Of a stretch of 64,000 bases of DNA, positions 12,962-60,650 are shown in pieces. The notes below the pieces were generated by a model. That model did not search any database and was not told where the DNA came from. It was given only the letters and a program-made list of their open reading frames with translations. Position numbers and translations under genes: made by a program. Position 1 is the stretch's first letter, and every line of letters starts with the position of its first letter. Source of the DNA: Acidovorax sp. RAC01 (GTDB lineage Bacteria; Pseudomonadota; Gammaproteobacteria; Burkholderiales; Burkholderiaceae_C); assembly GCF_001714725.1 (NCBI RefSeq), contig NZ_CP016447.1, positions 4,025,501-4,089,500 on the forward strand, written 5' to 3'.

Positions 12962-13294
12962 GCCCTATGGCTTGCCCTGATTGATTTAATTGCTATTGTA
13001 ATCATAGCAAATGCGATAGAAAACCGTAGGCACGCCAGCAGGCCAGGCCCCGAGTCGCCGAAACGTGCTTGAGCGCAGGGAACCGCAATGCCTGGCCCCC
13101 GCAGCGGCAACCACATCACGCGTTGTGCGGCGGCGCCCGCCAGGTCCGCGCGGGCCTGTAGGCGCAGCGCAGACACGGCCGGGGGCTGTTCGCTGGGGCA
13201 TGCCATGGCCACAGCCGCCGGCTCGCACAGGGCAGCACCGTCGGCAACCAGCGTCCTGCCGCAGGCCACCGGGCCGTGCGGGCATCATGGCGAC
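12962..13294. other. 333-bp intergenic region before alkB
   Basis: It contains one copy of the 17-bp dyad repeat (12992-13008). An open frame from 13088 runs into alkB, but its residues are low-complexity Arg/Ala/Pro and unlike the family N-terminus. I see no other gene here. Confidence 0.5.
12992..13008. repeat. dispersed 17-bp dyad repeat, copy A
   Basis: GCTATTGTAATCATAGC, core GCTA-N9-TAGC; flanking TT/AA extends the arms to seven perfect base pairs. It lies 31 bp after the SNF2 gene stop. Confidence 0.75.
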
Positions 13295-13948
13295 ATGACG
13301 GCCCCACTTTTCGATGACCCCGCCCAGCCACCGCGCGCCCCTCAGGAGCTGGAGCCCGGCGCGATGGTGCTGCCTGGCTTCGCCCACGACCAGGCTGCCT
13401 TGCTGCTGCAGGCGGTTGCAGCCATTGCCACGCGCGCTCCCATGCGGCACCTCATCACGCCAGGCGGGCTGCGCATGTCGGTGGCCATGACCAACTGCGG
13501 CAATCTGGGCTGGGTGAGCGACCGCACGGGCTACCGCTACGCGGCGGTTGACCCCGAAAGCGGCCATCCGTGGCCCTTGATGCCAGCCTGCTTTGAAGAC
13601 CTGGCGCGCGAGGCCGCAGCCGCGGCGGGCTATCCTGGCTTTACACCCGATGCCTGTCTCATCAACCGGTATGCCATCGGGTCCCGCCTGTCCCTGCACC
13701 AGGACCGAGACGAACGCGATCTGGCGCACCCCATCGTGTCGGTTTCGCTGGGGCTACCGGCCAGCTTCCTGTGGGGCGGACGCCAGCGTACGGCCAAGGT
13801 CCGGCGCGTGGCATTGCTCCACGGCGACGTCATGGTGTGGGGCGGGCCTGCGCGCCTGCACTTCCATGGAGTGCAGCGGCTGGCACGCGGAAACCACCCG
13901 TTGACGGGGCCTTGCCGCATCAATCTCACGTTCCGCAAGGCAGACTAG
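13295..13948 (+). CDS. alkB: DNA oxidative demethylase AlkB
   Basis: A 217-residue Fe(II)/2-oxoglutarate dioxygenase that removes methyl groups from 1-methyladenine and 3-methylcytosine in alkylated DNA. Iron ligands are visible as LSLHQDRDE (His135, Asp137) and LHFHGVQRL (His191); 2-oxoglutarate-binding arginines lie in CRINLTFRKAD (Arg208, Arg214). NRYAIGSRL and the nucleotide-recognition segment TNCGNLGWVSDRTGYRY match E. coli AlkB, as does the length. The start gives a normal-length protein; the frame extends further upstream. The stop codon is followed immediately by a 19-bp inverted repeat. No ada gene is adjacent. Confidence 0.92.
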   Translation: MTAPLFDDPAQPPRAPQELEPGAMVLPGFAHDQAALLLQAVAAIATRAPMRHLITPGGLRMSVAMTNCGNLGWVSDRTGYRYAAVDPESGHPWPLMPACFEDLAREAAAAAGYPGFTPDACLINRYAIGSRLSLHQDRDERDLAHPIVSVSLGLPASFLWGGRQRTAKVRRVALLHGDVMVWGGPARLHFHGVQRLARGNHPLTGPCRINLTFRKAD

Positions 13949-14110
13949 GAGCCTGTCGGACTTGGAGCGCCGAAAGCGAAAATCGGCCCCAGCGAGGACA
14001 GTTTTTGCCGAATTTGCAGCCCCATAGCCGAGCTATGGGGCAAAAAGACGGGAAAAAATGGACTGCTGCGGTCGATTTGCAGCCGACGATTTCCAAGTCC
14101 GACAGGCTCC
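13949..14110. repeat. 162-bp inverted-repeat element after alkB
   Basis: GGAGCCTGTCGGACTTGGA at 13949-13967 and its exact reverse complement at 14092-14110 bound the element. Near the middle is a hairpin CCCCATAG-CCGAG-CTATGGGG at 14020-14040. The left arm starts at the base directly after the alkB stop codon. The structure resembles a small non-autonomous mobile element or a palindromic intergenic repeat; it contains no coding frame of note. Confidence 0.8.
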
Positions 14111-14114
14111 GCGG

Positions 14115-14144
14115 GCCTGTCGGACTTGGAGCGCCGAAAGCGAA
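14115..14144. repeat. 30-bp direct repeat of the element's left end
   Basis: Positions 14115-14144 repeat 13951-13980 exactly (GCCTGTCGGACTTGGAGCGC and the following CGAAAGCGAA). This third copy of the terminal sequence lies 5 bp outside the right arm of the inverted-repeat element, as if a second element began here and was truncated. Confidence 0.8.
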
Positions 14145-14498
14145 GCCCGCGCCGCCAGCGGCGTGCGCCCTGCCCCTGCGGCCTGTATGGCTGTCCGTCG
14201 CCATGCCCTACCGGCTTCACCCGCGCGGGGGGTGTTCGTGGGGGTCGCTCAACGCGCGTCGATGGGGGAGCCGTGCGCTCGCGGTGGCCAGCGCAACCCC
14301 GCCGCGGCGGCGACCGCAGCCCGCAGTGAGTGGAATCCCTTGACCCGCGTGCGCCTCTCGGGTCAGCGCCCCAACGAAGGCGATGGCTTTGCACGCATTG
14401 ACTTGCTGCTCCTAATGCAGGAGCATTTCGTGAAACTGACGGGACATCCGACCGTATCGGCGACACCACGCCGTTTTTCACCATGAAGGGCTATCACC
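14145..14498. other. 354-bp region without a recognised gene
   Basis: Between the repeat and the EVE-domain gene there are open frames in both directions. None shows a recognisable domain, signal peptide or start context. A frame ending at 14486 (ARIDLLLLMQEHFVKLTGHP near its end) has slightly more protein-like composition but no start of its own. I cannot assign a function. Confidence 0.4.
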
Positions 14499-14984
14499 GT
14501 GCCACACAGCACCAGCGCAGTGCGCCCCACCCGCTACTGGCTCATGAAATCCGAGCCAGACGAATGCTCCATCGACGACGCGCTGGCCGCCCCGTGTGCC
14601 ACCGTGGCCTGGACAGGCGTGCGCAATTACCAGGCACGCAACTTCATGCGGGACGGGATGCAGGTTGGCGACGGGGTGCTGTTCTACCACTCCAGCTGCG
14701 CGAAACCGGGCATTGCTGGCGTCGCGCGGGTCGCCAGTGCCACCCGCGCCGACCCCACCCAGTTCGACCCTGGCTCGCCCTACCACGACCCCAAGTCGCA
14801 GCTTTCTACCCCCCGCTGGCTGTTGCTGGACGTGCAGGCGCTGCGCAAAACGCGGCCCATCGGCCTGGCCGAGTTGCGGGCACATCCCGAGCTGGCGGGG
14901 CTGCAAATCCTGCAGCGTGGGAACCGGCTTTCCATCACACCCGTCGATGAGGCGCACTGGAACGCCATCATGCGGCTGGGGTAG
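14499..14984 (+). CDS. EVE-domain protein
   Basis: A 161-residue protein of the EVE/PUA-like fold (Thy28 type), proposed to bind modified bases in nucleic acids. It shows YWLMKSEPDECSIDDALA at the start, WTGVRNYQARNFMRDGMQVGDGVLFYHSSCAKPGIAGVARV, and DPKSQLSTPRWLLLDVQALRKTRPI, all hallmarks of the family. The GTG start has GAAGG about 8 nt upstream; the Met in YWLMKSEP would remove the first strand. It stands alone downstream of the repeat region. Confidence 0.88.
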   Translation: MPHSTSAVRPTRYWLMKSEPDECSIDDALAAPCATVAWTGVRNYQARNFMRDGMQVGDGVLFYHSSCAKPGIAGVARVASATRADPTQFDPGSPYHDPKSQLSTPRWLLLDVQALRKTRPIGLAELRAHPELAGLQILQRGNRLSITPVDEAHWNAIMRLG

Positions 14985-15302
14985 CCCTGTCCACGTCAAG
15001 AGCCGGGCTTGGCCCCATGGTAGCCGCGCGCCCCAAGGGGCCGGTGCGGCCCCAGGCGGCAGAAAGCTGGCTGCGGTGCGGGGTGGTGTTTCCGCAACGC
15101 GTGGCCCCTTGGGGCCTTGCACTGCCGTGGTGCATGGCGTGTACTCGTGCGCCCCGGCAAGGTCGCTCGCATACCATGCCGCGGAGCCATTGCAAATGAT
15201 GACCCTTTCACCTGCCCGCCATTACCCGCCGTCGCATCCCTGCAGGCAGGCGGTCGCCCTTGTCCGCCGCGTTTGGCAACCGCTTTTGCCCACCGGCTTT
15301 CG
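14985..15302. other. 318-bp intergenic region before the sensor kinase
   Basis: No gene is recognised. Two self-complementary motifs, CCCCAAGGGG and CCCCTTGGGG, lie about 75 bp apart and can also pair with each other. No T-tract follows, so I do not call a terminator. Confidence 0.4.
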
Positions 15303-16775
15303 ATGAACTGGATTGACATCCCCACGGTACTGCTTGTGCTGGGTCTGCTGTACTTGATGGCACCCGCCATCACCTGGGCCGTGCTGGCTCAGGACCGCAG
15401 CCCCTCGGCGGCTTTCTGGTGTGCCGGCGGGTTGCTGTTTGGCCTGGGGATCTTCATTGCATCGTTTGCCAACCGGCTGCCTGCCATCATTGGAGTGTTT
15501 TTGACCAACGTGCTCTTTTGGGCGTCGTGCGCGCTGCGTATCCAGTCCCTGCGCTGGGATCTGCGCGAACCGCTGGCCTGGCGCTGGCTGTGGGTGCCGA
15601 TCGGTATGGCGGCACTGTTTACCAGCATTACCCACTGGGGCCTGGGCTGGTATGTGATGCGCGCGTCCGTCAACACGGCACTGCTGGCTGCGGGCATGGC
15701 CTACATTGCGCTCCTGGCGCTCAGGCTTGGCCGGCAGGAGAGAAGCCGCAACGCCTTTTTTCTGGCGTGCATCTACCTTGCACTGGTGATGGCGCTCATA
15801 GTGCGGCTGGTAGAGATCCTGCTCCATCCCGGGGGCAATCCGCTGCCGGTGGCCCGCCCGGCGACCACAGCGCTGATAGCCCTGACCGGGCTGCTGACCG
15901 CCGTGGCCGGGCACTTTTGCTATCTGGGCATGGTGCTGGACCGTGCCCGCCGCCGCGAGCGCGTGCTGGTGGTAGAAAAGGCCCAGCGCGACGCCAAGAT
16001 TCTGCTGCAGCAGGAGGTGCGGCAGGTCGAGCGCCAACGCAGCATCGACCAGATGTCGGTATCCCTGGCCCATGAACTCAGCCAGCCCGTGGGCGCGGTG
16101 CTCACCAACGCCCAGACTGGACTGCGGGCCATCGAACTGCATCGGGTAACGCCGCAGGAATTGATCCCACTGCTGCAGCAAATCGAACAGAGCGCCCGGC
16201 ACGCCAGCCGGGTGATCGAGCGCATCCGGTCGTTCATCCGGCCATCGCGCCTCCCTCACCAGCCTGTCGATCTTGCCGACGTGTGCCACAGCGCCAGCGA
16301 ACTCGCTGCAACCGACCTCCGCAAAAACGGCGTGGAATTGCTGCGCAGCCCACCCACGACCCCGGTGCAGGTCATGGGGGATGCGCTGGAATTGACACAG
16401 GCGGTGCTCAACGGATTGCGCAATGCCTCGGATGCGCTGGCATCCGTCCAGCACCGCCAGGTTCGCCTTTCGTATGGTTGCGAAGCTCCCTGGGCATGGC
16501 TGCGCGTGGAAGACAACGGCCCGGGCCTGCCGGCCGATCAGCTCAAGAACGCCACCGAACCTTTCTTCACCACCAAGGCAGGTGGCCTTGGCCTGGGGCT
16601 CAGCATTGTGGAGTCGATTGCACAGCGACATGGTGGCCACCTGATCCTGGCCCACGCGGCGCCCGGCGGTCTGGGGGGGGCTACGTTCGAGCTGCGCCTG
16701 CCGCTGCTCTGCCCGACTGCACGCACCCCCTCTTCTTGCGTTTCCTCAGATTCCGCGACAGCGTCCGAACCATGA
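15303..16775 (+). CDS. multi-pass membrane histidine kinase
   Basis: A 490-residue kinase. The N-terminal 210 residues hold about seven or eight hydrophobic segments (IPTVLLVLGLLYLMAPAITWAVL, GLLFGLGIFIASFA, and so on), suggesting an intramembrane sensor and no extracellular domain. A short coiled region leads to the H-box SVSLAHELSQPVGAVLTN of the FixL-like class, then the ATPase domain with N-box VLNGLRNASDAL, VEDNGPGLP and GGLGLGLSIVESIAQRHGG. The end overlaps the response regulator start by 4 bp (ATGA), so the two are translationally coupled. The stimulus is unknown. Confidence 0.88.
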   Translation: MNWIDIPTVLLVLGLLYLMAPAITWAVLAQDRSPSAAFWCAGGLLFGLGIFIASFANRLPAIIGVFLTNVLFWASCALRIQSLRWDLREPLAWRWLWVPIGMAALFTSITHWGLGWYVMRASVNTALLAAGMAYIALLALRLGRQERSRNAFFLACIYLALVMALIVRLVEILLHPGGNPLPVARPATTALIALTGLLTAVAGHFCYLGMVLDRARRRERVLVVEKAQRDAKILLQQEVRQVERQRSIDQMSVSLAHELSQPVGAVLTNAQTGLRAIELHRVTPQELIPLLQQIEQSARHASRVIERIRSFIRPSRLPHQPVDLADVCHSASELAATDLRKNGVELLRSPPTTPVQVMGDALELTQAVLNGLRNASDALASVQHRQVRLSYGCEAPWAWLRVEDNGPGLPADQLKNATEPFFTTKAGGLGLGLSIVESIAQRHGGHLILAHAAPGGLGGATFELRLPLLCPTARTPSSCVSSDSATASEP

Positions 16776-17458
16776 ATTTCCCCGCACCCACTCGAAGGGT
16801 TGTCACTGTTTCCGATGAGGCATTGGCCGAGCGCTGCGCAAAGGGCCGCATCGTTCTGATCGACGACCATGAAGAGGTCTTGCAGGCGCTGACCAACCTG
16901 CTGAGCCTGGAGGGCTACGCCTGCGACGGCTACCCTTCGGCGATCGCTTATCTTGCATGGCTAAAACGCAACGAGCCCGTGTTTCCCGGGCCATCCTGCA
17001 TCCTGAGCGACATGCGGCTACCCGGACTCGATGGACTGGAGCTGCTGGGACTGCTGGGCGGCCGCGAAGACATGCCGTTAATCCTGATGAGTGGCGCCAG
17101 CGGGATTCGCGAAGCGGTGCAAGGGTTTCGCACCGGCGCGGTGGACTTCCTCGTCAAGCCCGTGGAAACCGACGAGCTGCTGGGCGCGGTGACCAAGGCA
17201 CTGGCGATCAGCGCGCAAGCACACGACCGGCGCGCCCGTGGCAACGACATTGCCGAACGGCTGGCCAGCCTGACACCGCGCGAGGAGACCGTAGCCGCCC
17301 GCGTGGCGCAGGGTGAAACCAATGCGCAGATTGCAGCGGCCCTGTGCATTTCGCTGCGCAGCGTCAAGCGCATCCGGCAATCGGCAGCGCTCAAGCTGGG
17401 CGCCACATCCACGGCAGAACTGGTGCTCAAGTTCACCGACGGCAGCCGGCGCCTGTAG
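16772..17458 (+). CDS. FixJ/NarL-type response regulator
   Basis: A 228-residue regulator. A 25-residue extension precedes the receiver domain (IVLIDDHEEVLQALTNLL), whose phospho-acceptor is Asp80 in CILSDMRLPGLDG; the Lys is in VDFLVKPVETDELL. The C-terminal LuxR-type helix-turn-helix is LTPREETVAARVAQGETNAQIAAALCISLRSVKRIRQSAALKLGA. The ATG overlaps the stop of the membrane kinase, so they form a cognate pair. Its targets are unknown; the following chemoreceptor gene is one possibility. Confidence 0.9.
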   Translation: MNFPAPTRRVVTVSDEALAERCAKGRIVLIDDHEEVLQALTNLLSLEGYACDGYPSAIAYLAWLKRNEPVFPGPSCILSDMRLPGLDGLELLGLLGGREDMPLILMSGASGIREAVQGFRTGAVDFLVKPVETDELLGAVTKALAISAQAHDRRARGNDIAERLASLTPREETVAARVAQGETNAQIAAALCISLRSVKRIRQSAALKLGATSTAELVLKFTDGSRRL

Positions 17459-17625
17459 CAAATCTGGCACGTTTGTGAACTGGCACTTTGGGGACGTTGG
17501 CCGCGCCCGGCGCTCCCGGTAGCCTCCAGCGAGCTGCCATCACAAGGCAGCGTGCGAACTGGCGTACAGAGCCCGGGCATGTCGCCCTGCAGGGCCACGC
17601 CGCGTGCTGATACTGGAGACATTCC

Positions 17626-19239: not shown

Positions 19240-19308
19240 GAGCGACCGGACATTCAGCGAAAGGTCTGGCGGGTATCCTGTCCGGCTTGCCAACACCCGT
19301 CGCTCTGA

Positions 19309-19827: not shown

Positions 19828-19864
19828 GGCCTGTTCACACTCTATTTGCCAGTGCGAAGGTCGT

Positions 19865-19946
19865 GCAAACCGCGCCAGTCCAGGCGCGTGATGGCGCCAA
19901 GGCCAGGGCCTTGGCCAAGAAAGCAACAACAAGTGGCGCGGTTTGC
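19865..19946. repeat. 82-bp nested inverted-repeat element
   Basis: GCAAACCGCGCCA (19865-19877) pairs perfectly with TGGCGCGGTTTGC (19934-19946). Inside it, GCCAAGGCC-AG-GGCCTTGGC (19897-19916) forms a second tight hairpin. The preceding GGCCTGTTCACACTC begins right after the flavodoxin stop. It has no T-tract, so it is a structured repeat and not an obvious terminator. Confidence 0.75.
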
Positions 19947-20003
19947 ATGCCCTTCCCTTTGGGTGGCAACCCCAAAGAGCCATCTCGGCGGACCGCCCGC
20001 GGG

Positions 20004-22274: not shown

Positions 22275-22654
22275 GGGGCGCGGGGAAGCAGGTTTCCTGA
22301 AAAAATCGAAGAAAAGTGGTCAAGGCGCTTTTCAGTCGGTCACCTATCGCTACGGATTCGATAGCAACCAGCATTATCCCCCGGCGCTGTGCTCCCGAGC
22401 CGGGCGGGCCCGGCCCATTCGCAGGCACCACACGCTGCGCACCGCGCGAACCGGGCACTGCACGCCTGCACTGCTGGCCTGCGCGGGGGCATGGCAGGCG
22501 ACGGACTGGCGGTTTTGGCACTGCATGTGGCGGTATCGGCCACCCTGGCACCGAGGCCCGGCGCTAGCATGACCTTGCGTTCATCGCACGGCGCAGGTGC
22601 CCGCATGGCCCTGCCCGCTTACAACAACATCCACACCATCCGGAGACAAAACCC
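22275..22654. other. 380-bp divergent intergenic region
   Basis: Located between the methyltransferase and acylase starts, it holds repeat copy B (22349-22365) and presumably both promoters. No separate gene is seen; overlapping open frames have the Arg/Pro/Ala composition typical of GC-rich non-coding sequence. Confidence 0.5.
22349..22365. repeat. dispersed 17-bp dyad repeat, copy B
   Basis: GCTACGGATTCGATAGC, core GCTA-N9-TAGC. It differs at one base from the reverse complement of copy G inside hscA (GCTACGGATTTGATAGC). Confidence 0.75.
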
Positions 22655-25078: not shown

Positions 25079-25380
25079 CCAAGCGCAACGCTGTCTGGGC
25101 TGAGACCCTGCGCGCCGGCTGGCAAGACACGGCCCCGTGCAAGCCTCATGCAGATCTGTGTGGGGCCTTGATGGGGCCTTTTGGGTATTTTTTCAGGCCT
25201 TTCCAGCGTGCCAGGCGGTAGGCGGTAGGCGGTAGGCGGCAGGGGGCAGAATTTATGATTTTTTTGGCCCCTGGGGCTCTTCGCACTTGGAAAGTTTGCT
25301 ATCTTTTTAGAAGCATTCAACACCCCCAGGCAGGTATCCACAGGCTCGCCAGCGACCCGCCGCCACCGGGAAATCGCCCA
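25079..25380. other. intergenic region with a heptamer tandem and a dyad repeat
   Basis: Three perfect GGCGGTA units at 25214-25234, followed by a partial fourth, form a short tandem. Copy C of the dyad repeat follows at 25298-25314. Local AT content rises around 25250-25320. No gene is seen. Confidence 0.55.
25298..25314. repeat. dispersed 17-bp dyad repeat, copy C
   Basis: GCTATCTTTTTAGAAGC fits GCTA-N9-TAGC with one mismatch in the right arm. Confidence 0.55.
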
Positions 25381-27347: not shown

Positions 27348-27475
27348 GTATGGTGGAGCAATAGCAGTGTCAGACTGACCGGCAGGCGTGCGCTGCGGTT
27401 TCAATGCACCCGCAACCGTGACGGTTTCATCCGCGGTCTCAGATTTTGACGCCTCGTCAAAGGGGCAGTACCCCG

Positions 27476-27516
27476 ACAAAGAAAAAGCCGCGCAGCCCTT
27501 TCGGTGCTTGCGCGGC
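27476..27516 (-). terminator. terminator of the aceE-aceF-lpdA operon
   Basis: On the minus strand GCCGCGCA...TGCGCGGC forms an 8-bp stem (27487-27494 with 27509-27516) followed by TTTTTCTTTG. It lies about 50 bp past the lpdA stop. Confidence 0.8.
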
Positions 27517-27564
27517 CAGCTATTGAATCCGTAGCGTTTCAGCAGCTCATCTATCCACTTTGGC

Positions 27565-29415
27565 TCACTTCTTCTGCGGCGGCACGTCGGTGCAGCTGCC
27601 ATGCGCAATCTCCGCCGCCATACCGATGCTCTCGCCCAGCGTGGGGTGCGGGTGGATGGTCTTGCCGATGTCCACCGCGTCGGCGCCCATCTCGATGGCC
27701 AACGCAATCTCGCCGATCATGTCGCCCGCATGGGTGCCAACCATGCCGCCGCCCAGGATCTTTCCGTGGCCATGGGCCTCGGGGGAATCGTCGAACAGCA
27801 GCTTGGTGACGCCTTCGTCGCGGCCATTGGCGATGGCGCGGCCGGAGGCCGTCCAGGGGAACAGGCCCTTCTTGACCTTGATGCCTTGGGCTTTGGCCTG
27901 GTCTTCGGTCAGGCCGACCCATGCCACTTCGGGGTCGGTATAGGCCACCGATGGGATCACGCGGGCGTTGAAGGCGGCGGCTGCCAGCTCCTTGTTGCCC
28001 TGCAGTTCGCCCGCAATGACTTCGGCCGCCACGTGCGCCTCATGCACCGCCTTGTGCGCCAGCATGGGCTGGCCCACGATGTCGCCGATGGCGAAGATGT
28101 GCGGCACGTTGGTGCGCATCTGGATGTCGACGTTGATGAAGCCACGGTCCGTGACGGCGACGCCAGCCTTCTCAGCAGCGATCTTCTTGCCGTTGGGCGT
28201 GCGGCCCACGGCCTGCAGCACCAGGTCGTACACCTGCGGCTCGGGGGCGGTGCCGCCCTCTTCCGCTGGCGCGAAGGTCACCTTGATGCCTTCGGGCGTG
28301 GCTTCGGCGCCCACCGTTTTCGTCTTCAACATGATGTTGTCGAAGCGCTTGGCGTTCATCTTCTGCCAGATCTTGACCAGGTCGCGGTCAGCGCCCTGCA
28401 TCAGGCCGTCCATCATTTCCACCACATCGAGGCGCGCGTCCAGGGTGCTGTAGACGGTGCCCATTTCCAGGCCGATGATGCCGCCGCCCAGGATGAGCAT
28501 GCGCTTGGGCACTTCCTTGAGCGCCAGGGCGCCGGTGGAATCGACCACGCGCGGGTCGTTGGGCATGAAGGGCAGGCGTACGGCCTGGCTGCCGGCAGCG
28601 ATGATGGCTTTCTTGAAGGCGATGACCTTTTTGCTGCCTGTCTTCTCCTGGCCGGTGCCGGTGGTTTCCTCCACCTCCAGGTGGTTAGCCCCGACGAACG
28701 CACCGTAGCCGCGCACGGTGGTCACTTTGCGCATCTTGGCCATGGCAGCCAGGCCGCCGGTGAGCTTGCCGATGACCTTTTCCTTGTGGCCGCGCAGCTT
28801 GTCGATGTTGACGGCCGGTGCGCCAAAGTCCACGCCCAGGTCGGCCATGTGGCTGACTTCGTCCATGACGGCGGCCACGTGCAGCAGCGCCTTGGAGGGG
28901 ATGCAGCCCACGTTGAGGCACACCCCGCCCAGGGTGGCGTAGCGCTCGACGATGACGACCTTGAGGCCCAGGTCGGCTGCGCGGAAGGCGGCGCTGTAGC
29001 CACCGGGGCCGCCGCCGAGCACGAGCACGTCGCAGTCCAGGTCAGCCGTGCCTGCAAAGCTGGATGCTACTGGATTGGTAGCTGCTTGTGCTTTTGGAAC
29101 GGGCGCTGGAGCCTGTTTTTGCTCAGTGACTGCAGGCGCTGGGGCGGCGGCAGGTGCTGGAGCTGCCGCGCCTGCGCCCTGCACTTCCAGCGTCAGCACC
29201 ACCGAGCCTTCGGCGATCTTGTCGCCGAGCTTCACTTTCAGCTCCTTGACTACGCCAGCATGGCTGGAGGGGATCTCCATGGAGGCCTTGTCGGACTCCA
29301 CGGTGATCAGGCTCTGCTCGGCCTTGATGGTGTCGCCGGGTTTGACCAGCACTTCGATGATGGCCACTTCGGCGAAGTCGCCGATGTCGGGCACCTTGAT
29401 GTCGATGATTGCCAT
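27565..29415 (-). CDS. lpdA: dihydrolipoyl dehydrogenase (E3) with N-terminal lipoyl domain
   Basis: A 616-residue flavoprotein that reoxidises dihydrolipoamide with NAD+ in the pyruvate dehydrogenase complex. Residues 1-78 form a lipoyl domain with Lys43 in [13 protein letters not shown]. An Ala/Pro linker (about 80-125) leads to the FAD domain (VLVLGGGPGGYSAAFRAADLG) and the redox disulfide Cys166/Cys171 in GGVCLNVGCIPSKALLH. The NAD-binding motif is ILGGGIIGLEMG, and the C-terminal dimer interface holds HAHPTLGE with the catalytic His. Third gene of the operon, 19 bp after aceF. A copy of the dyad repeat encodes residues 108-117 of the linker. Confidence 0.95.
   Translation of the reverse strand: MAIIDIKVPDIGDFAEVAIIEVLVKPGDTIKAEQSLITVESDKASMEIPSSHAGVVKELKVKLGDKIAEGSVVLTLEVQGAGAAAPAPAAAPAPAVTEQKQAPAPVPKAQAATNPVASSFAGTADLDCDVLVLGGGPGGYSAAFRAADLGLKVVIVERYATLGGVCLNVGCIPSKALLHVAAVMDEVSHMADLGVDFGAPAVNIDKLRGHKEKVIGKLTGGLAAMAKMRKVTTVRGYGAFVGANHLEVEETTGTGQEKTGSKKVIAFKKAIIAAGSQAVRLPFMPNDPRVVDSTGALALKEVPKRMLILGGGIIGLEMGTVYSTLDARLDVVEMMDGLMQGADRDLVKIWQKMNAKRFDNIMLKTKTVGAEATPEGIKVTFAPAEEGGTAPEPQVYDLVLQAVGRTPNGKKIAAEKAGVAVTDRGFINVDIQMRTNVPHIFAIGDIVGQPMLAHKAVHEAHVAAEVIAGELQGNKELAAAAFNARVIPSVAYTDPEVAWVGLTEDQAKAQGIKVKKGLFPWTASGRAIANGRDEGVTKLLFDDSPEAHGHGKILGGGMVGTHAGDMIGEIALAIEMGADAVDIGKTIHPHPTLGESIGMAAEIAHGSCTDVPPQKK
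29066..29082. repeat. dispersed 17-bp dyad repeat, copy D, inside lpdA
   Basis: GCTACTGGATTGGTAGC, core GCTA-N9-TAGC, followed by TGCTTGTGCTT. It lies in frame in the lpdA interdomain linker, where its translation is part of KAQAATNPVA. Confidence 0.65.
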
Positions 29416-37184: not shown

Positions 37185-37192
37185 GGCGAATA

Positions 37193-37209
37193 ACTACTAT
37201 TTTTATAGC
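37193..37209. repeat. dispersed 17-bp dyad repeat, copy F
   Basis: ACTACTATTTTTATAGC matches GCTA-N9-TAGC with one mismatch in the left arm. It lies between the FixJ-type gene and folD, 9 bp after the regulator stop. Confidence 0.65.
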
Positions 37210-37261
37210 AATAAACGTATATTAGGCAAGCGACAGCGGCCATTTTGACCCTATTTTCGAC

Positions 37262-44323: not shown

Positions 44324-45418
44324 TCAGACGAGCCGCGCAACCTGTGCTGCAATGGCCAGGCAACCCGTCAGACCCGGCGACTCGATGCCAAAGAGGTTGA
44401 CCAGGCCGCGCACCCCGTGGTCCCGGGGGGCCTGGATCATGAAGTCAGGCTGCGGCGTGTCCGGACCGTGGATCTTGGGCCTGATGCCTGCATAGCCGGG
44501 CACCAGCGCGCCGTCGCGCAAACCTGGCCAGTACTTTCGCACTTCGGCATAGAAAGCATCGCCGCGGGATGGGTTCACCAGCAGATTATCCGGCCCATCC
44601 ACCCACTCCACATCCGGACCGAACCGCGCTTGTCCGCCCAGATCCAGCGTAAGGTGCACGCCCAGGCCCGCGGCCTCGGGCGCGGGGTAGATCAACCGGC
44701 TGAACGGTGCCTTGCCCGCCAGCGTGAAATAGTTGCCCTTGGCGTAGTACGCCTGCGGCACATGCGCGGCCGCCAGGCCGGCAAAAAGGGACGCCACCGC
44801 TGGCGCGTGCAGCCCTGCCGCATTGACGACCACATCGGCACGCAGCCGTACGCCCGCAGCTTCGACAACAGCTCCGTCGGCGTCCGAAAAGTCCGCTCGC
44901 GTGACTGGCGAATTCAGGGCGACCAGCCCGCCCGCGTTTTCCAGGTCGCCCTGCAAGGCCAGCATCAGCCCGTGGCTGTCGACGATGCCGGTGCTCGGCG
45001 AGTGCAATGCTGCCACGCACTGCAGCTCAGGCTCCATCGCCCCGGCTTCATCAGCGGTGAGCCAGACGAGGTCCTCTACGCCGTTGGCCAGTGCCCTCGC
45101 ACGGATGGCTTCAAGCGCGGGGATCTGCTCGGGCGAGGTTGCCACCAGCAGCTTGCCGCAGCGCCTGTGCGGCACCCCGCGCTCGGCACAGTAGGCATAC
45201 AGCATCTGTTTGCCCTGCACGCACAACCGGGCCTTGAGGGAGCCAGTGGGGTAGTAAAGCCCGGCATGGATGACCTCGCTGTTGCGGGAACTGGTGCCGG
45301 TGCCGATGGCGTCCGCCGCTTCCAGCACCATGACCTCGCGCCCGCTTACGGCCAGCGCACGCGCCACGGCCAGCCCTACCACGCCCGCTCCAACCACCAC
45401 ACATTCGACCTTGTCCAT
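44324..45418 (-). CDS. FAD-dependent oxidoreductase (L-2-hydroxyglutarate oxidase-like)
   Basis: A 364-residue DAO-family flavoprotein. The dinucleotide fold is [65 protein letters not shown]. The motif [15 protein letters not shown] is the LhgO/L2HGDH signature. [16 protein letters not shown] and [13 protein letters not shown] follow, and the C-terminus has [12 protein letters not shown] and [14 protein letters not shown]. It probably oxidises an L-2-hydroxy acid; the precise substrate is not shown. It starts 62 bp after the histone-deacetylase-like gene in the same direction. The longer open frame upstream overlaps that gene and was excluded. Confidence 0.88.
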
Positions 45419-45479
45419 CGTCGCCCTGCTTTCGTCTCTGTCTGCGTCCGCGCTCCACCGTGGATCGCGACCCCGTTCT

Positions 45480-46517
45480 TCAGTGCTGCTCAAAGCCTTC
45501 AAGCACATTGACGGCATTGGTGCCGAGTTCAGCAGCCGCGTAGCCACCTTCCAGCACGAACACGGTTGGCATTGCCAAGGCGCCCAGACGCTCGCCAAGA
45601 CGCGAGAAGTCGTCCGAGCTGAGCGCAAAGGTGGAAATCGGGTCACCTTCGAACGCATCCAGCCCCAGGGAGACCACCAAGGCATCTGCGCCATAACGCG
45701 CAATGCGCTGACAAGCGACGTCGAGCGCAGCGAACCATGTGGCAACGCTGGAGCCTGCCGCCAAGGGCAGGTTGAGGTTGAACCCCGCTCCGGCGCCCTC
45801 GCCTGTTTCGTCGGCATGGCCCAGATAGAACGGGTACTCGGTGCGCGGATCACCGTGGATGCTGGCAAAAAACACGTCTGCACGGTCATAGAAGATGCTC
45901 TGCGTGCCGTTGCCGTGGTGGTAGTCCACATCCAGCACCGCCACCCGGTGCGCCCCCTGATTGCGCAGGGTCTGGGCCGCCACCGCGGCATTGTTCAGAA
46001 AGCAGTAGCCGCCCATGAAATCTGCCCCCGCATGGTGCCCGGGCGGGCGGGTGCAGCAAAAGGCCGCACGGCTGCCCGCGCTTACCTTGCGGGCGGCGCT
46101 GGCAGCGGCATCGGCACCGGCCTTTGCGGCCGCCCAGGTGCCTGCAGCAAGGGGGCTGCCGTTGTCCATGGAGTACAGCCCCAACCTGGCAATGAAGTTT
46201 TGAGGCTCCACATCGCTGCGCAAGGTACGCACCGGCCACACGGAGGGGAACGGCTGGAGCGGCGCGTTGCCAGGGGAAACCTCCAGCCACTGCGTCCAGG
46301 CCGTCTGCAGAAAGGCGAGGTAACGCGGCCTGTGGATCTGGGCCAGCACGGCGCTGGCATCGGTATCGGGCACGGTCAGCGGGTGTCCTCGTTCGCGCAG
46401 CGCCTCCTCTACATAGACCACACGTTCGGGCTTTTCAAAACAGGGCACCCGTTCGCCGCGGAAGAACTCGTGGACCGGTGCGTGCCCGGAATGAGGAGGA
46501 TTGTGGAAGGTCAGCAT
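45480..46517 (-). CDS. histone deacetylase-fold amidohydrolase (acetylpolyamine type)
   Basis: A 345-residue zinc amidohydrolase. [25 protein letters not shown] carries the His-His catalytic pair; [42 protein letters not shown] has the first Asp/His zinc ligands, and [26 protein letters not shown] the last Asp. The conserved Tyr lies in [14 protein letters not shown]. Bacterial members deacetylate polyamines or small acetyl-amides and not histones. The start [14 protein letters not shown] matches the conserved N-terminus; a further start upstream passes through the tRNA terminator and was rejected. Confidence 0.9.
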
Positions 46518-46659: not shown

Positions 46660-46734
46660 TGGTGGGTGATACATGGATCGAACATGTGACCCCTGCCGTG
46701 TGAAGGCAGTGCTCTACCGCTGAGCTAATCACCC
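46660..46734 (-). tRNA. tRNA-Val(CAC), downstream copy
   Basis: The 75-nt gene reads GGGTGATTAGCTCAGCGG at its 5' end and ATCACCCACCA at the 3' end, with CCA encoded. The anticodon stem CTGCC/GGCAG encloses loop TTCACAC, anticodon CAC, reading GUG. Acceptor arms GGGTGAT/ATCACCC pair fully and the T-loop TTCGATC is intact. It is identical to the copy 43 bp upstream. Confidence 0.96.
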
Positions 46735-46777: not shown

Positions 46778-46852
46778 TGGTGGGTGATACATGGATCGAA
46801 CATGTGACCCCTGCCGTGTGAAGGCAGTGCTCTACCGCTGAGCTAATCACCC
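46778..46852 (-). tRNA. tRNA-Val(CAC), upstream copy
   Basis: Identical in all 75 positions to the downstream copy, with encoded CCA. It begins 37 bp after the dnaQ stop codon on the same strand, with no terminator seen between, so dnaQ and the two tRNAs may share a transcript. Confidence 0.96.
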
Positions 46853-48095: not shown

Positions 48096-49997
48096 TCAGA
48101 GCGACTGCACGTTCTTGCCAGCCAGGGCCTGCTGGATGCCGCGGTTCATGCGCTGCGCTGCAAAGGCCTCGGTGCCCTGGGCCAGCGCCTCGGTAGCTAC
48201 CTCGATGGCTGCTGCATCGGGAGCGTCGGGTGAATCCGGTGCATTTCCGGCGTCGATCAGTGACCGCAGGGCTTGCATCAGCAAGTCGATCTTGCGCCGT
48301 TCGTCATCCGCCAGCACATCGCCGTCGGCATCCAGCGCACTCTGCGTGGCAATCAGCATGCGGTCGGCGTCCACACGGGCTTCCACCAAAGCGCGGGTGC
48401 GCATGTCCTGCGCGGCCGTGGCAAAGCCGTCTTGCAGCATGCGCGCGATCTGGTCATCCGAGAGGCCATACGATGGCTTCACGTCGATGCGGGCCTCCAC
48501 GCCGCTGCCCTGCTCGCGCGCATTCACGCTCAGCAGGCCATCGGCATCGACCGTGAAGGTCACACGGATACGCGCCGCTCCGGCCGCCATGGGCGGGATG
48601 CCGCGCAGCTCGAAGCGCGCGAGACTGCGGCAGTCGGCCACCAGATCGCGTTCGCCCTGCACCACATGGATAGCCAGCGCGGTCTGGCCATCCTTGTAGG
48701 TGGTGAAGTCCTGGGCCTTGGCGGTGGGAATGGTCTCATTGCGCGCCACGATGCGCTCCACCAGCCCGCCCATGGTCTCGATGCCCAGCGACAGCGGAAT
48801 CACGTCCAGCAGCAGCATGTCGCCCGCCGTGCTGTTGCCCGCCAGCTGGTTGGCCTGGATGGCAGCGCCGAGCGCCACCACCTCGTCAGGGTTCAGGTTG
48901 GTCAGCGGCTCGGTGCCAAAGAACTCGGCCACGGCGCGCTGGATCTGGGGCATGCGTGTGGAGCCGCCCACCATCACCACGCCACGGATGTCCTCGCGTG
49001 ACAGCTGTGCATCGCGCAGGGCGCGGCGCACCGCCGCCATCGAACGGGCGGTCAGGGCGGCGGTGATGGCTTCAAAATCTTCCCTTTTCACAGGAAAATC
49101 GACCCTGGCGCTTGATATGTCTGCCTTGAATGCTATCAAATCCGTAGCGGTCAGGGCTTCCTTGCAAGCGCGGGCGGCCACGCGCATGGCCGATTTGTCG
49201 GAGGCGGTCACCAGCTCCAGGTTGCATTGCTGGACCACCCAGTCGGCCAGCGCGGCATCGTAGTCGTCGCCACCCAGGGCCGAGTCACCGCCGGTGGAAA
49301 TGACCTCGAACACGCCCTGCGTCAGGCGCAGGATGGAGATGTCGAACGTGCCCCCACCCAGGTCGTACACGGCATAGACACCCTCGCTGGCGTTGTCGAG
49401 GCCGTAGGCAATCGCCGCTGCGGTGGGTTCGTTGATCAGGCGCAGCAGGTTGATGCCTGCCAAGCGCGCGGCGTCCTTGGTAGCCTGGCGCTGGGCGTCG
49501 TCAAAGTACGCAGGCACGGTGATCACCGCGCCATACAGGTCATCGTTGAAGGTGTCCTCGGCCCGAAAGCGCAGCGTGGCCAGGATCTCGGCGCTGAGCT
49601 CCACCGGCGACTTTTCGCCACCCGCGGTGGCAATGCGCACCATGCCGCCTTCAGCAGCGTCTGCGGCCGGGGCCACGAAGTCGTAGGGCAGCTTGCCGGC
49701 CTCGGCAATGTCGGCCAGACCGCGGCCCATGAAGCGCTTGAACGATGCGATCGTGTTGCGCGCATCCTGCGACTGTTCGGCCATCGCGTCATAGCCAATC
49801 TGCCGACCGCCGTTGTCGAGGTAGCGCACCACGGAGGGCAGCAGAACGCGGCCCTGGCCATCAGGCAGGCACTCGGCCACACCGTTGCGTACGGCTGCCA
49901 CCAGCGAATGGGTGGTCCCGAGGTCGATACCCACCGCTATGCGCCGCTGGTGCGGATCGGGGGACTGGCCGGGCTCGGAAATCTGCAGTAACGCCAT
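48096..49997 (-). CDS. hscA: Fe-S assembly chaperone HscA
   Basis: A 633-residue Hsp70 specialised for transferring the cluster from IscU. The nucleotide domain shows [71 protein letters not shown] and [12 protein letters not shown]. The substrate domain shows [17 protein letters not shown]. Residues 283-297 ([15 protein letters not shown]), in a variable loop of nucleotide-domain lobe IIB, are encoded by a copy of the dispersed dyad repeat. It lies between hscB (70 bp) and fdx (64 bp). Confidence 0.96.
49108..49148. repeat. dispersed dyad repeat, extended copy G, inside hscA
   Basis: Core GCTATCAAATCCGTAGC at 49132-49148, and GCGCTTGAT 24 bp before the core start. Copy H (57775-57815) has the same GCGCTTGAT at the same 24-bp distance. 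The element is in frame in hscA. Confidence 0.75.
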
Positions 49998-50658: not shown

Positions 50659-50686
50659 CCGGTGCAGACGCAGGCCTACGCTGGAG

Positions 50687-51010: not shown

Positions 51011-51015
51011 GGTCC

Positions 51016-51411: not shown

Positions 51412-51448
51412 GGTGTTACCTCTTAATGCTTCAGATTCGATCAGATGA

Positions 51449-52669: not shown

Positions 52670-52776
52670 GGCTGGCTCAGTGAATGCGTCTGGCTGGCAG
52701 AAAACAATAAGAACAGATAGTTTCGAAGGCGTTCAGCGCTGCGCCGAGCCGATGGCCCGCGCCGCAGCGCCAGGCG

Positions 52777-55633: not shown

Positions 55634-55738
55634 GGGGGAGGTCAACGGGTGGTGTGAGCCGGCCGTTAAAATTGGCCGAACCCGGCACAGTACACCACGC
55701 CCGGAATCTTCGCTACTGACAACCTTTCAAGGATTTTC

Positions 55739-56947: not shown

Positions 56948-56970
56948 CCCCCTGAGTCGCTGACGCGCCT

Positions 56971-57012
56971 TCCCCCTTTCTCTCGATTTGCTGCGCAATT
57001 CGGGAAGGGGGA
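56971..57012. repeat. hairpin after the aminotransferase gene
   Basis: TCCCCCTT (56971-56978) pairs with AAGGGGGA (57005-57012) around a 26-nt loop. It is 23 bp past the stop and has no T-tract. It may be an intergenic palindromic repeat or a factor-dependent terminator. Confidence 0.5.
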
Positions 57013-57120
57013 CGCAGCCAGCGCACACAAGCAAAGCGCCGCTGCGCAGCTCGGCGGCCCTTGCGCGGCTACCTAGCCTAGGCAGCGGTTGTTCGAAGCT
57101 TCGCAGCATTGCGCAGTCCA

Positions 57121-57735
57121 ATGAACGAACACCCGCATTCCCGCACTGAGCTTCAGTATCGCTTTGTGACCGAAGCGCTCCAGAACCCGCACAACGCGGC
57201 CCTTCTGGAGCGTTTGCCGTTTCTGGGCCTGCCCGATGCATGGCTGGTGGCTGGCTGCCTGTTCCAGACCGTGTGGAACCTGCAATCCGGCCTGTCGGCC
57301 ACGGCCCATATCAAGGACTACGACGTTTTCTATTTCGATGCGTCGGACCTTTCGGAAGACGCGGAGCAGGCCGTTCAGACGCGCGTCACCGCACTGTTCG
57401 GCGATCTGCCGATCACCGTGGAAGCCAAGAACCAGGCCCGCGTGCACCTTTGGTACGAAAGCTGGTTTGGCCATCCATACGCGCCCCTGCAATCTTCGAG
57501 TAACGGCATCGAGCGGTTTCTGGTGCCGTGCACCTGCGTAGGCCTGCAGCCAGCGCGTGAGGGCAGCGACGAGTCCCCCACGTTGTATGCGCCGTATGGG
57601 CTCGATGAGCTGTACGCTGGGCTTCTGCGGCCCAACCCGGCGTGTCCGCACCTGCCACTGTTCCAGGCCAAGGCGGCAAGCTACCGCGAACGCTGGCCGT
57701 GGCTGACCATGGAGACGGGTGTGCTACCCCTCTGA
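57121..57735 (+). CDS. nucleotidyltransferase-fold protein (DUF925 family)
   Basis: A 204-residue protein with an NTP_transf_6 / DUF925 pattern: LPDAWLVAGCLFQTVWNLQSGLSATAHIKDYDVFYFDASDLSEDAEQ carries the G-C-x-x-x-x-V-W-N and Asp-Tyr-Asp acidic motif, and KNQARVHLWYESWFGHPYAPLQSS the third acidic strand region. Family members are predicted nucleotidyltransferases with unknown substrates. The ATG MNEHPHS was chosen over a TTG four codons upstream. Dyad repeat copy H follows. Confidence 0.85.
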   Translation: MNEHPHSRTELQYRFVTEALQNPHNAALLERLPFLGLPDAWLVAGCLFQTVWNLQSGLSATAHIKDYDVFYFDASDLSEDAEQAVQTRVTALFGDLPITVEAKNQARVHLWYESWFGHPYAPLQSSSNGIERFLVPCTCVGLQPAREGSDESPTLYAPYGLDELYAGLLRPNPACPHLPLFQAKAASYRERWPWLTMETGVLPL

Positions 57736-57761
57736 CCGCTTTCCTCGGCATATTTCAAGCG

Positions 57762-57815
57762 TTTTTTGCCTCTAGCGCTTGATTCATATGCACTGGCAGC
57801 TATCAAAAGTGGAGC
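57762..57815. repeat. dispersed dyad repeat, extended copy H
   Basis: GCTATCAAAAGTGGAGC core (57799-57815) with one mismatch; GCGCTTGAT begins 24 bp earlier (57775), preceded by GCCTCTA and a T-run at 57762-57767. This is the longest copy and the best template for the family. Confidence 0.75.
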
Positions 57816-57842
57816 AAATCAACCATTCCCGCCCGGCATGCC

Positions 57843-58766
57843 CTACCCCCAGAGCACCGACCGCATCGAGATCGACGCCGACTGGTAGCCCGTGTTGAAG
57901 AACCGCGGCATCTCGCTGGGCAGCACCGCGCCTGCCGCGTACAGCAGCGGCAGGTAATGCTCGTGCGTGGGGTGCGCCTGCCGGGCCACAGCGCCCAGGT
58001 TCAGAAAGTCCTGCAGGGCACCCAGTTGGCCTTTCTTGATCTGCTCCTGCACCACGGTGTCGAATTCCGTGGCCCAGTCGTACGCTTCGTTCGCAGCCGT
58101 ACCCCGGCGGGTCAGCCGCAGGTTGTGCACCACATTGCCACTGCCCACGATGAGCACCCCGCGCTCGCGCAGCGCCGCCAGCTGCCGGCCCAGCGCATAG
58201 TGCTCGACCGGGGCACGGCTGTAGTCCATGCTCAGCTGCATGACCGGGATCTGCGCCTTGGGGAACATGGGCTTGAGCACAGACCATGTGCCGTGGTCCA
58301 GCCCCCACTCGCTCTCGTCCACACCCAGGGCCCGGCCTGTGACGGGCGATTTCAATTCGGCCGCCAGGGTGCGTGCCACCTGCGGCGCGCCGGGGGCGGG
58401 GTATTGCTGGTCAAACAGCTCCTGCGGAAACCCGCCAAAGTCGTGGATCGTCCTGGGGCTGGCCATGCCCGTCAGCTGCCAGCCGCCACGCGTGAGCCAG
58501 TGGGCCGATACGCACAGGATGAGTTGCGGCTGCACGGCGCGCGCCGCCAGCTCGGCTCCCATGGCCTGCCAGCTGCGGCGCCAGGCGTTGTCCTCGATGG
58601 CATTCAGGGGGCTGCCGTGGCCCACAAACAGCACCGGCATGCGCGGCGAAGGCCTGAGCGCCTGCAGTACGGGGGCAGCGGCAGCGCTGCTCAGGGGCGA
58701 GGTCATGAAAACTCCCGGAAGGGCGGCCAGGCCCGTGAGGGCGGCCAAAGACGTTCTGCGTTGCAT
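57843..58766 (-). CDS. extradiol ring-cleavage dioxygenase (LigB/YgiD type) with Tat-like leader
   Basis: A 307-residue protein of the 4,5-DOPA-dioxygenase (YgiD) subgroup of the class III extradiol enzymes. Metal and active-site His occur in LFVGHGSPLNAI, LCVSAHWLTRGGW, WGLDHGTWSVLKPMFP and AHPTHEHYLPLLYAAGA. NTGYQSASISMRSVLWG is a typical ending. Unusually the N-terminus starts MQRRTSLAALTGLAALPGV, a twin-arginine-like leader absent from cytoplasmic YgiD. An internal start at MTSPLSS would remove it. The substrate is not known. Confidence 0.85.
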   Translation of the reverse strand: MQRRTSLAALTGLAALPGVFMTSPLSSAAAAPVLQALRPSPRMPVLFVGHGSPLNAIEDNAWRRSWQAMGAELAARAVQPQLILCVSAHWLTRGGWQLTGMASPRTIHDFGGFPQELFDQQYPAPGAPQVARTLAAELKSPVTGRALGVDESEWGLDHGTWSVLKPMFPKAQIPVMQLSMDYSRAPVEHYALGRQLAALRERGVLIVGSGNVVHNLRLTRRGTAANEAYDWATEFDTVVQEQIKKGQLGALQDFLNLGAVARQAHPTHEHYLPLLYAAGAVLPSEMPRFFNTGYQSASISMRSVLWG

Positions 58767-58890
58767 GGATCAGGGAGCGTAACGTAACAATTTATGTATA
58801 ACGCAGGGAGTGAGCCGCCCGCGCCCCGGTAGTTCCGGCGCCCGCTCCCGAAATATCAAGCACAGCTCTGCATAGAGACCATCCGCCACC

Positions 58891-59781
58891 ATGACGCCTG
58901 CCCTGCCCCAGCCCCTGCGCAACACCCGCGTTCTGAGCCTTGCGCTCAACCTGCCCGGCCCCGCGGCCCTGATGCGCTGCGCGCGCATGGGGGCCGAATG
59001 CACCAAGCTCGAACCCCTGCCCGCCCCCGGCTACCCCAGCGCCGACCCCATGGGCATCTACAGCCCTGCGGCCTATGCCACGCTGCACACCGGCGTGCGC
59101 GTGGTGCATGCCCACCTGAAGACGGCCGAGGGCCAGGCCACGCTGCACGATGAGCTGGCGCGCACCGATGTGCTGATCACGTCCTTTCGGCCGTCGGCCC
59201 TGAACAAGCTGGGCCTGGGCTGGGAAGCACTGCAATCGAAATACCCGCGCCTGTCGCTGGTACGCATCGTCGGAGCAGCGGCCGAGCGCGCTGAGGAGCC
59301 CGGCCATGACCTCACCTACCTGGCCGACGCCGGGCTGGTGACTGGCACCGAAATGCCGCCCACGCTCTACGCCGACATGGGCGGCGCCCTGATGGCCAGC
59401 GAGGCCGTGCTGCAGGCCCTGCTGGACCGGGCCCACACCGGTGCAGGCGCGTGCATTGAAGTGGCACTGGCCGACGCCGCCGCCTGGCTGGCCCAGCCGC
59501 GCGACTGGGGCCTGACCACGCCCGACGGCGATGTGGGCGGCAACCACGCGGGCTACCGCATCTACCCCTGCGCCGACGGCCGCGTGGCCGTGGCTGCGCT
59601 GGAGCCCCACTTTGCCGCCAGCCTGTGCGCCGCCGCCGGCCTGCCGCCCACGGGTGATGCCGATGTGCTGCGCGCCCCTGCCACCCATGAAGCCATTGCG
59701 CGCTTTCTGCGCAGCCAGAAGCGGGAGCAGCTCGACGCGCTGGCCACGGCACACGACATTCCCCTGCATACGCTGGCCTGA
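58891..59781 (+). CDS. short CaiB/BaiF-family CoA transferase-like protein
   Basis: A 296-residue family III CoA-transferase-like protein. RVLSLALNLPGPAALMRCARMGAECTKLEP is the CoA-binding N-terminal block, DVLITSFRPSALNKLGLGWEAL the second, and EEPGHDLTYLADAGL carries the Asp that forms the acyl-CoA aspartyl anhydride. Family members usually have 360-400 residues; this one lacks most of the small-domain insertion. It might act as a racemase/CoA transferase or be a reduced paralogue. It is 15 bp upstream of the cold-shock/DUF1294 gene. Confidence 0.82.
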   Translation: MTPALPQPLRNTRVLSLALNLPGPAALMRCARMGAECTKLEPLPAPGYPSADPMGIYSPAAYATLHTGVRVVHAHLKTAEGQATLHDELARTDVLITSFRPSALNKLGLGWEALQSKYPRLSLVRIVGAAAERAEEPGHDLTYLADAGLVTGTEMPPTLYADMGGALMASEAVLQALLDRAHTGAGACIEVALADAAAWLAQPRDWGLTTPDGDVGGNHAGYRIYPCADGRVAVAALEPHFAASLCAAAGLPPTGDADVLRAPATHEAIARFLRSQKREQLDALATAHDIPLHTLA

Positions 59782-59796
59782 GCGGGGCCCTCACCG

Positions 59797-60567
59797 ATGC
59801 AAAAGCAGGGCACCGTCACCCGGTGGGACACCGCACGGGGGTTTGGCTTCATCCGCAGCCCCGACACCCCGGCGGATGTGTTCTTTCATGTGCGCGACTT
59901 CCGCGGCGCCGAGCCACCGCGCGAAGGGCTGCGTGTTGTGTTTGAAGAGATCCATGTGGGCGGGAAGGGCCCGCGCGCCATGGCCGTGCAGACTGCGGGC
60001 GGGGCCGGTGCCACAGGCAACGCCGCACAGCGCACCGGCTCTGCCGCCAACCCGCCTCCCAGCGCAGGCGGCGCACGCAATCCCGGGGCCAACCCTCGGC
60101 GATCCGGCAACGCACCACAGCGGGATGCACCCGCTGCGCGCAGCCAACAGGAAGCACCGCGCACCAAGGCAACTGCGCGCGGCGGTCGCCCATCCCCTGC
60201 CAGCGCCGCCTCTGCCGGGGTGGCACTGCTGCTCACCATCCTCTGGCTCGGCCTGATCGCCTGGGGCATCTGGGCCGGCCGGCTGCCCCTGGGCTGGACG
60301 CTGGGCGCAGCGCTGGGCCTGAACGCCCTTACCTTCGCGGCCTACGCCATCGACAAGAACGCCGCCATGCAAAGGCAGTGGCGCATTCCCGAGAAGCATC
60401 TGCACCTGCTGAGCCTGGCGGGCGGTTGGCCGGGTGCGTGGCTGGCGCAGCAATTGTTGCGGCACAAGTCGCAAAAAGCCGAGTTCCGCCTGGCCTACTG
60501 GGGCACAGTCGTGCTGCACAACGCAGCGCTGGCCGCGTGGATGGCAGGCGTCATCCACCTGCCCTGA
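59797..60567 (+). CDS. cold-shock domain / DUF1294 membrane fusion protein
   Basis: A 256-residue fusion. Residues 1-65 are a cold-shock nucleic-acid-binding domain (KQGTVTRWDTARGFGFIRSPDTPADVFFHVRDF with the RNP1-like GFGFI and RNP2-like VFFHV). A 70-residue disordered Ala/Pro/Arg-rich linker leads to two transmembrane helices and DUF1294 (ALTFAAYAIDKNAAMQRQWRIPEKHLHLLSLAGGWPGAWLAQQLLRHKSQKAEFR) with a final helix. The RNA-binding part would face the cytoplasm. Its function is unknown. Confidence 0.88.
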   Translation: MQKQGTVTRWDTARGFGFIRSPDTPADVFFHVRDFRGAEPPREGLRVVFEEIHVGGKGPRAMAVQTAGGAGATGNAAQRTGSAANPPPSAGGARNPGANPRRSGNAPQRDAPAARSQQEAPRTKATARGGRPSPASAASAGVALLLTILWLGLIAWGIWAGRLPLGWTLGAALGLNALTFAAYAIDKNAAMQRQWRIPEKHLHLLSLAGGWPGAWLAQQLLRHKSQKAEFRLAYWGTVVLHNAALAAWMAGVIHLP

Positions 60568-60633
60568 GGCGCTGCGGGGCACGCCCGGTCCTGCAGAACG
60601 CAGGGCCACCCACGGCCATCACGCCAGCCATTC

Positions 60634-60650
60634 GCTATTATTTTAGTAGC
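60634..60650. repeat. dispersed 17-bp dyad repeat, copy I
   Basis: GCTATTATTTTAGTAGC, perfect GCTA-N9-TAGC core. It lies in the 253-bp gap before the following gene, which otherwise holds no recognised feature. Confidence 0.75.

Follow-up and report, generated by a model that had tools for sequence, protein, structure and literature searches.

Strong sequence preference in DNA uptake has been described for species of two bacterial families, the Pasteurellaceae and the Neisseriaceae (PMC7811141; this and the other papers cited here were available to us as excerpts, and what we draw from them applies to those parts). The DNA uptake sequence (DUS) of Neisseriaceae is a 10-12-mer with thousands of copies, a constant core, dialects and a reported binding protein, ComP (PMC3630211), while the uptake signal sequence (USS) of Pasteurellaceae joins a core to AT-rich segments, occurs about once per kb, has had its uptake measured, and is reported to originate by point mutation, not by insertion (PMC7811141). 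Repetitive extragenic palindromic (REP) sequences, the partners of REP-associated tyrosine transposases (RAYTs), are described as small (20-40 bp) and extragenic (PMC2817692, PMC8266576, PMC3733652). In 2017, two spaced pairs were reported as separate potential novel motifs with no role assigned, ATAGCT(N)22CAAAAG with 125 copies in Polaromonas naphthalenivorans CJ2 and GCTTAT(N)5AAGCG with 114 copies in Acidovorax ebreus TPSY (PMC5217627). Here we analysed a window of 64,000 nucleotides from Acidovorax sp. RAC01 (NZ_CP016447.1, positions 4,025,501 to 4,089,500), in which an earlier note had seen nine dispersed 17-bp dyads of the form GCTA-N9-TAGC, and found that the dyad, sharpened to GCTAY-N7-RTAGC, is the left end of a longer asymmetric element of about 66 bp. 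At a probability of roughly 0.38, we read this element as a DNA recognition signal that is spread over the genome and inherited for the most part vertically, most likely one resembling an uptake sequence. It shares with the DUS a constant core, clade variants, within-species conservation, coding as well as intergenic copies and confinement to one family, and differs from it in its length, in its hundreds rather than thousands of copies and in being known from sequence alone.

All nine dyads are present in the window at the reported positions with no or one arm mismatch; an exact match at 27519 and one-mismatch matches at 16960, 21564 and 48181 had been overlooked. The window count alone is non-significant, with 13 sites against 9.2 expected and 12 of 100 shuffles equally high. 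Across the genome, 327 exact GCTA-N9-TAGC sites stand against 160 for the pattern read backwards, and 318 of the sharper cores against 63 for the control. In an 864-kb sample, GCTA and TAGC occurred 66 times at spacing 9, where the 4-mer counts predict 1.4, and the other spacings between 3 and 29 gave 0-3 occurrences each; the spacer was AT-rich there too, which bears out the observation in the window. Alignment of the flanks, which the earlier note had proposed, revealed an ungapped shared unit extending from about -2 to +63 relative to the core. We then used 1.244 Mb (59 evenly placed 20-kb stretches plus the window) both to train an element matrix and to scan with it, the window included, and obtained 152 copies scoring at least 18 bits, or about 560 by extrapolation to the 4.57-Mb genome; the reversed-sequence control gave no hit of 14 bits or more and one at 12. 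A chance origin of the motif was rejected by the genome-wide counts, the spacing test and the reversed control, and the strong over-representation on both strands is as expected of DUS and USS. The consensus is roughly TT-GCTAY-N3-WW-N2-RTAGC-TATAAGNGCATANANAMCAAGCGCTAGNGGCCAATTTTGACCTNAAAA (57.6 bits of information), with dyad centres at 8, 31 and 57 and a constant right part that reads roughly CTRGAG.C.WTTTT, six or seven bases, AAA. The sample contains 98 exact GCTAY-N7-RTAGC cores, 89 of them inside full elements; two of the other nine are cut at the end of a stretch and two are one sequence at two places. This last pair (L084 14495 and L085 4576) is an identical core-like chance match with identical flanks, apparently in two copies of one gene.

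Eight of the nine original sites belong to full elements; 36514 is excluded by its register scores (-6 on one strand, -4 on the other), and the overlooked 27519 is a weak element (23 bits). The string GCGCTTGAT, correctly noticed as common to the flanks of the cores at 49132 and 57799, is part of the middle module of the element. The repeat family is thus real, longer than its core and present within coding sequence, as the earlier note had supposed. Its parts can also be recognized in the 2017 pairs, the CJ2 pair fitting the span from RTAGC-T to the right part and the TPSY pair fitting the middle module, and these pairs are likewise mostly intergenic and often between convergent genes. However, the available text of that paper neither joins the two pairs nor describes a full element, dialects or conservation in place (PMC5217627). 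Motif pieces were found in that paper alone when it was compared with the available parts of PMC4212676, PMC3733652, PMC3630211, PMC7811141 and PMC12616744, and our literature searches, limited to such partial texts, returned no report that joins the two pairs or describes dialects.

The element is largely a feature of one family. The full pattern gave 14-174 matches per strand in 31 of 35 genus relatives and 1-8 in the other four, compared with 0-2 in 24 other families sampled; the core reached a maximum of 22 among the listed genomes of other families. Defining core-rich as 40 or more cores, we counted 49 core-rich genomes among 150 of the family, our own included, and fewer than 20 cores in 99 of the 149 genomes besides our own. 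Acidovorax leads the strict-pattern matches among the 80 listed of at least 120 stretches, which also include Rhodoferax, Ottowia, Diaphorobacter, Simplicispira and other Comamonadaceae as well as unclassified or broadly named metagenome bins. Separately, 37 stretches of viral contigs from IMG/VR (L315-L351) bear the element pattern, as might be seen with prophages that include host DNA or with phages that carry the tag. We next oriented the core flanks of five further genomes without using the first matrix. In all five, the ends of the element were constant and the middle of about 20 bp was different, largely uniform within each genome: GGCCGGCG-N4-RCGCCGGC in G206, GCCCA...TGGGC in G331, AGGCAATAAATACGCYGGC in G264, CYCCCGCGATATTCTATTGG in G297 and, from only 14 cores, a weaker GTCC/GGAC in G362. 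At the same codons of hscA, the own-genome middle was clear in G264 and G362, present as its left half in G297 and partial in G206. A constant core with clade-specific dialects, as reported for DUS (PMC3630211), is therefore found here as well.

The hscA copy allowed us to follow one element through many genomes. We scored 75 hscA loci, comprising 45 from 47 genus genomes, 28 orthologues from other genera and 2 paralogues. The site reached at least 9 bits in 59 of them (39 of 45 in the genus, 20 of 28 in other genera), with the element at exactly the same codons in 58 and one further copy beside a four-residue insertion; three of the remaining loci scored 0-9 and 13 were negative. In element-free orthologues (e.g. 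G005, G032, G383, G388 and G252) the local length of HscA is unchanged, and the hscA copy is therefore not a 66-bp insertion. The two paralogues are one residue longer locally; these second hscA copies (L279 and L280, from G028 and G029) are about 60% identical and element-free. Third-position GC was 0.40 inside the element and 0.80 outside it in all 48 loci scoring 25 or more, compared with 0.77 at the site and 0.81 outside it in the 13 negative loci; such low values only in element-bearing hscA indicate that the constraint acts on the DNA. At a second coding site, in a putative FAD-dependent oxidoreductase corresponding to the window open reading frame 44324-45991, 7 of 10 orthologues carry an element and G000, G030 and G237 do not, again with no change in length between the two forms (11 of the 20 regions gave no usable orthologue). 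Around hscA, three elements occupy the same places in the same orientation within about 20 kb in G380, G011, G001, G007, G029 and G018, and G033 has four in such an interval.

These comparisons bear on the earlier proposal of a small mobile repeat that invades coding sequence, which is not supported; at the two coding sites compared, the copies differ from element-free orthologues by substitution. The search for empty sites suggested at that time had a split outcome: no length change at the two coding sites, and an insertion-deletion difference at site A, the single intergenic site compared (11 of 20 regions comparable), where four element-free genomes have 121-130 bp between the anchors and seven bearers have 186-274 bp. 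An origin by substitution thus fits at the former two and an indel is seen at the latter. Because G331, from another genus, also bears the element at site A, loss by deletion is as likely there as gain by insertion. An old spread of a REP-like element or a miniature inverted-repeat transposable element, for example by the Y1 tyrosine transposase of the family, with copies since diverged or put to use, seems improbable to us overall. Besides the indel, it is favoured by the consideration that a 58-bit unit is more easily copied than evolved, and it is opposed by the divergence of the copies, as the 151 compared had a mean pairwise identity of 0.49 and a maximum of 0.76, and the 1.244-Mb sample contained no near-identical copies or recent duplicates. 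The coding copies, in place and indel-free at both sites compared, stand against it too, and 35 of the 152 copies lie in predicted coding sequence, unlike the extragenic placement of REPs.

The transposase itself gives evidence in both directions. Like REPs, the element has hundreds of dispersed palindromic copies, and a Y1_Tnp match was found in 45 of 49 core-rich genomes and in 67 of 101 others (Fisher p=0.0006, for all Y1_Tnp types and uncorrected for phylogeny). In G000 and G376, which belong to two genera, the 3' end of a RAYT gene abuts a truncated element with GGGGAC in place of its left arm, which might reflect entry of the RAYT unit into an element or an element that belongs to the RAYT flank; a third RAYT locus fetched from such a genome, G356, has no adjoining element. 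Since the Y1 match is commoner in core-rich genomes and truncated elements lie beside RAYT genes, we allow a REP-like past a small probability. However, no Y1_Tnp candidate was found in G206 despite its 420 cores, G371 with 309 cores is not among the Y1_Tnp matches listed, and the RAYT gene of our own genome has separate inverted flanks of the GGGGAC type. This gene matches the NCBIfam model of the REP-associated tyrosine transposase at 68.4 bits, below the cut-off of 80. Scanning 30 Y1 loci with the G000 matrix gave hits of 16 bits or more in three, a result that is little informative because most of the loci belong to genomes in which the full pattern is sparse. The Y1 transposase is associated with the element without being an evident requirement for it, and as a necessary partner it was set aside. 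A term search for six Comamonadaceae-related names in the available text of PMC3733652 found none.

Gene context was taken from a simple gene caller of our own (994 genes, coding fraction 0.77). The 152 copies comprise 35 in coding sequence, 76 in tandem gaps, 31 in convergent gaps, 8 in divergent gaps and 2 at stretch edges, whereas 424, 101 and 123 gaps of at least 66 bp were available in the tandem, convergent and divergent classes, respectively. With only 8 copies between divergent genes, a regulatory role in the promoter sense, which the earlier note had also allowed, is unlikely. The bias toward convergent gaps fits a chromosome-organising site, whose dyads would be bound by one or more dimeric proteins (a nucleoid-associated protein, condensin loader or gyrase), with even spacing and gene-end preference reflecting the management of supercoils or domains. 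The length of the element and its three dyad centres would suit several dimers, and copies per 20 kb are spread more evenly than Poisson (mean 2.42, variance 1.49, P=0.009); AT phasing with a peak at 10.5-11 bp (permutation p=0.07) points weakly the same way and was not used as support. We nevertheless consider this explanation somewhat unlikely. Roughly two thirds of the 150 genomes of the family fall outside the core-rich class, the middle is not a dyad in G264 and G297, and a concerted change of the middle at hundreds of sites is, as an argument, easier by drive than by site-by-site selection. There was also no visible origin-to-terminus gradient and no significant replichore strand bias in the sample, in which a strand or replichore rule like that of FtsK-orienting polar sequences or Chi was tried and not found.

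A selfish or repair-driven site could also explain why the middles change together at fixed sites with no change in length: its constant ends would be cut or nicked and the middle overwritten by gene conversion from other copies. We regard this as quite improbable, since G000 shows no linked tracts or near-identical copies, and the copies of G297 share a nearly invariant middle but differ from one another in the N7 loop and the right flank. A folded RNA element or terminator acting in transcripts is the least probable alternative and very unlikely, even though the element has dyads and many intergenic copies lie near gene ends. Among the 151 copies, no base-pair-type coupling was seen in the strongest column pairs. 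Compensatory changes between dyad partners were not seen either, the inner pair of the core being C-A 40 times and C-G 17 times; this lack of covariation between the arms makes a folded RNA unlikely. Consistently, none of the seven Rfam matches in the window at E<=5 overlaps an element, and the copies show no gene-strand preference, with near-random counts of 41 on the strand of the gene and 35 on the other strand in tandem gaps, and of 20 and 15, respectively, in coding sequence. The RNA and terminator reading was rejected on the arms without covariation and the lack of an overlapping Rfam match.

Taken as a recognition signal, the element resembles a 'self' tag that the cell reads more than it resembles a jumping repeat. 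Because its positions are uncoupled, its coding copies stay in place, its middles change in concert and it is lost from whole lineages, we infer a DNA reader acting in trans. The signal consists of a constant left dyad, a middle of about 20 bp that differs between genera and a constant right part, and a DNA-reading protein appears to select it base by base as double-stranded DNA. By analogy with DUS and USS, that reader may be the uptake apparatus; the uptake machinery would then prefer fragments bearing the local dialect, and recombination of the DNA taken up would enrich and standardise the motif at sites that tolerate it. Natural competence is reported for Acidovorax temperans and A. facilis, with A. 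temperans transformed by DNA of its own species only (PMC4212676).

Several observations weigh against the uptake reading. A. temperans did not accept DNA from A. facilis or A. delafieldii (PMC4212676), although genomes of all three species match one strict form of the element. ComEC matches in 144 of 150 family genomes and PilT matches over the cut-off in 146 of 150 give no discrimination, and a ComEC match is missing from the core-rich G275 (110 cores), as is a PilT match over the cut-off from the core-rich G240 (48 cores). The element is much longer than known uptake sequences and, at about one per 8 kb, several-fold sparser; partial sites are scarcer than gradual formation predicts (6 of 156 hits at 12-25 bits); and the spacing is even, whereas the distribution of uptake sequences is called uneven (PMC7811141). 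G331, G236 and G378 are core-rich and have no copy of the element in hscA. To these are added the indel at site A and the RAYT genes that abut the element in two genera. Competence genes, near-universal in the family, were discarded as uninformative markers of the element; our own genome has ComEC and PilT matches, as do nearly all element-free genomes of the family. In the element-bearing G237, the ComEC match is in three pieces (C1:1836740-1837544).

In its boldest form, which we put forward tentatively, the recognition signal may represent a third, independently evolved system for recognizing self DNA in Comamonadaceae. The tag, tripartite and about 66 bp long, would have constant ends and a 20-bp 'address' specific to the genus; a DNA-binding protein that evolves fast would read it, and it would be written in at hundreds of sites, some of them within conserved protein genes in which the amino-acid sequence gives way to preserve it. 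A true uptake signal would be a third case, longer and modular, through which the evolution of uptake specificity could be tested in bacteria common in the environment. A chromosome-organising site would instead be a dense, evenly spread class with fast-changing specificity, likewise without explanation. Either way, hscA is an instance of a DNA signal shaping protein sequence, and annotating such copies as mobile could mislead.

Table 1. Accepted elements in the window (nine; scores are matrix scores in bits) and RAYT loci with an adjoining truncated element
Feature	Position	Strand	Score
Full element, core 12992-13008	12945..13010	-	68.5
Full element, diverged, core 22349-22365	22302..22367	-	27.9
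Full element between convergent genes, core 25298-25314	25251..25316	-	53.7
Weak element, core 27519-27535	27472..27537	-	23.1
Element in coding sequence of dihydrolipoyl-dehydrogenase gene (27565-29415, minus)	29064..29129	+	48.8
Element between LuxR-type response-regulator gene and folD-type gene (Pfam)	37191..37256	+	72.5
Element inside hscA (48096-49997, minus), kept in place in relatives	49085..49150	-	55.2
Element between convergent genes (site A)	57752..57817	-	71.0
Full element, core 60634-60650	60632..60697	+	65.7
RAYT gene with truncated element, left arm GGGGACA.ATC	L042 1595-2400 (G000:C1, about 840.3-841.1 kb)		
RAYT gene with truncated element, left arm GGGGACA.ATC	L111 1336-2225 (G376)		

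The identity of the gene at 48096-49997 as HscA was confirmed by a family match. The copy in the dihydrolipoyl-dehydrogenase gene covers residues about 95-117, an Ala/Pro-rich linker from the N-terminal lipoyl-type domain to the main domain. The weakest element of the window overlaps, as judged by eye, a GC-rich minus-strand hairpin and the T residues that follow it, and so looks like an old copy turned into an intrinsic terminator. The window also contains two close tRNA genes on the minus strand, at 46663-46734 and 46781-46852, with equal Rfam scores of 66.4 bits.

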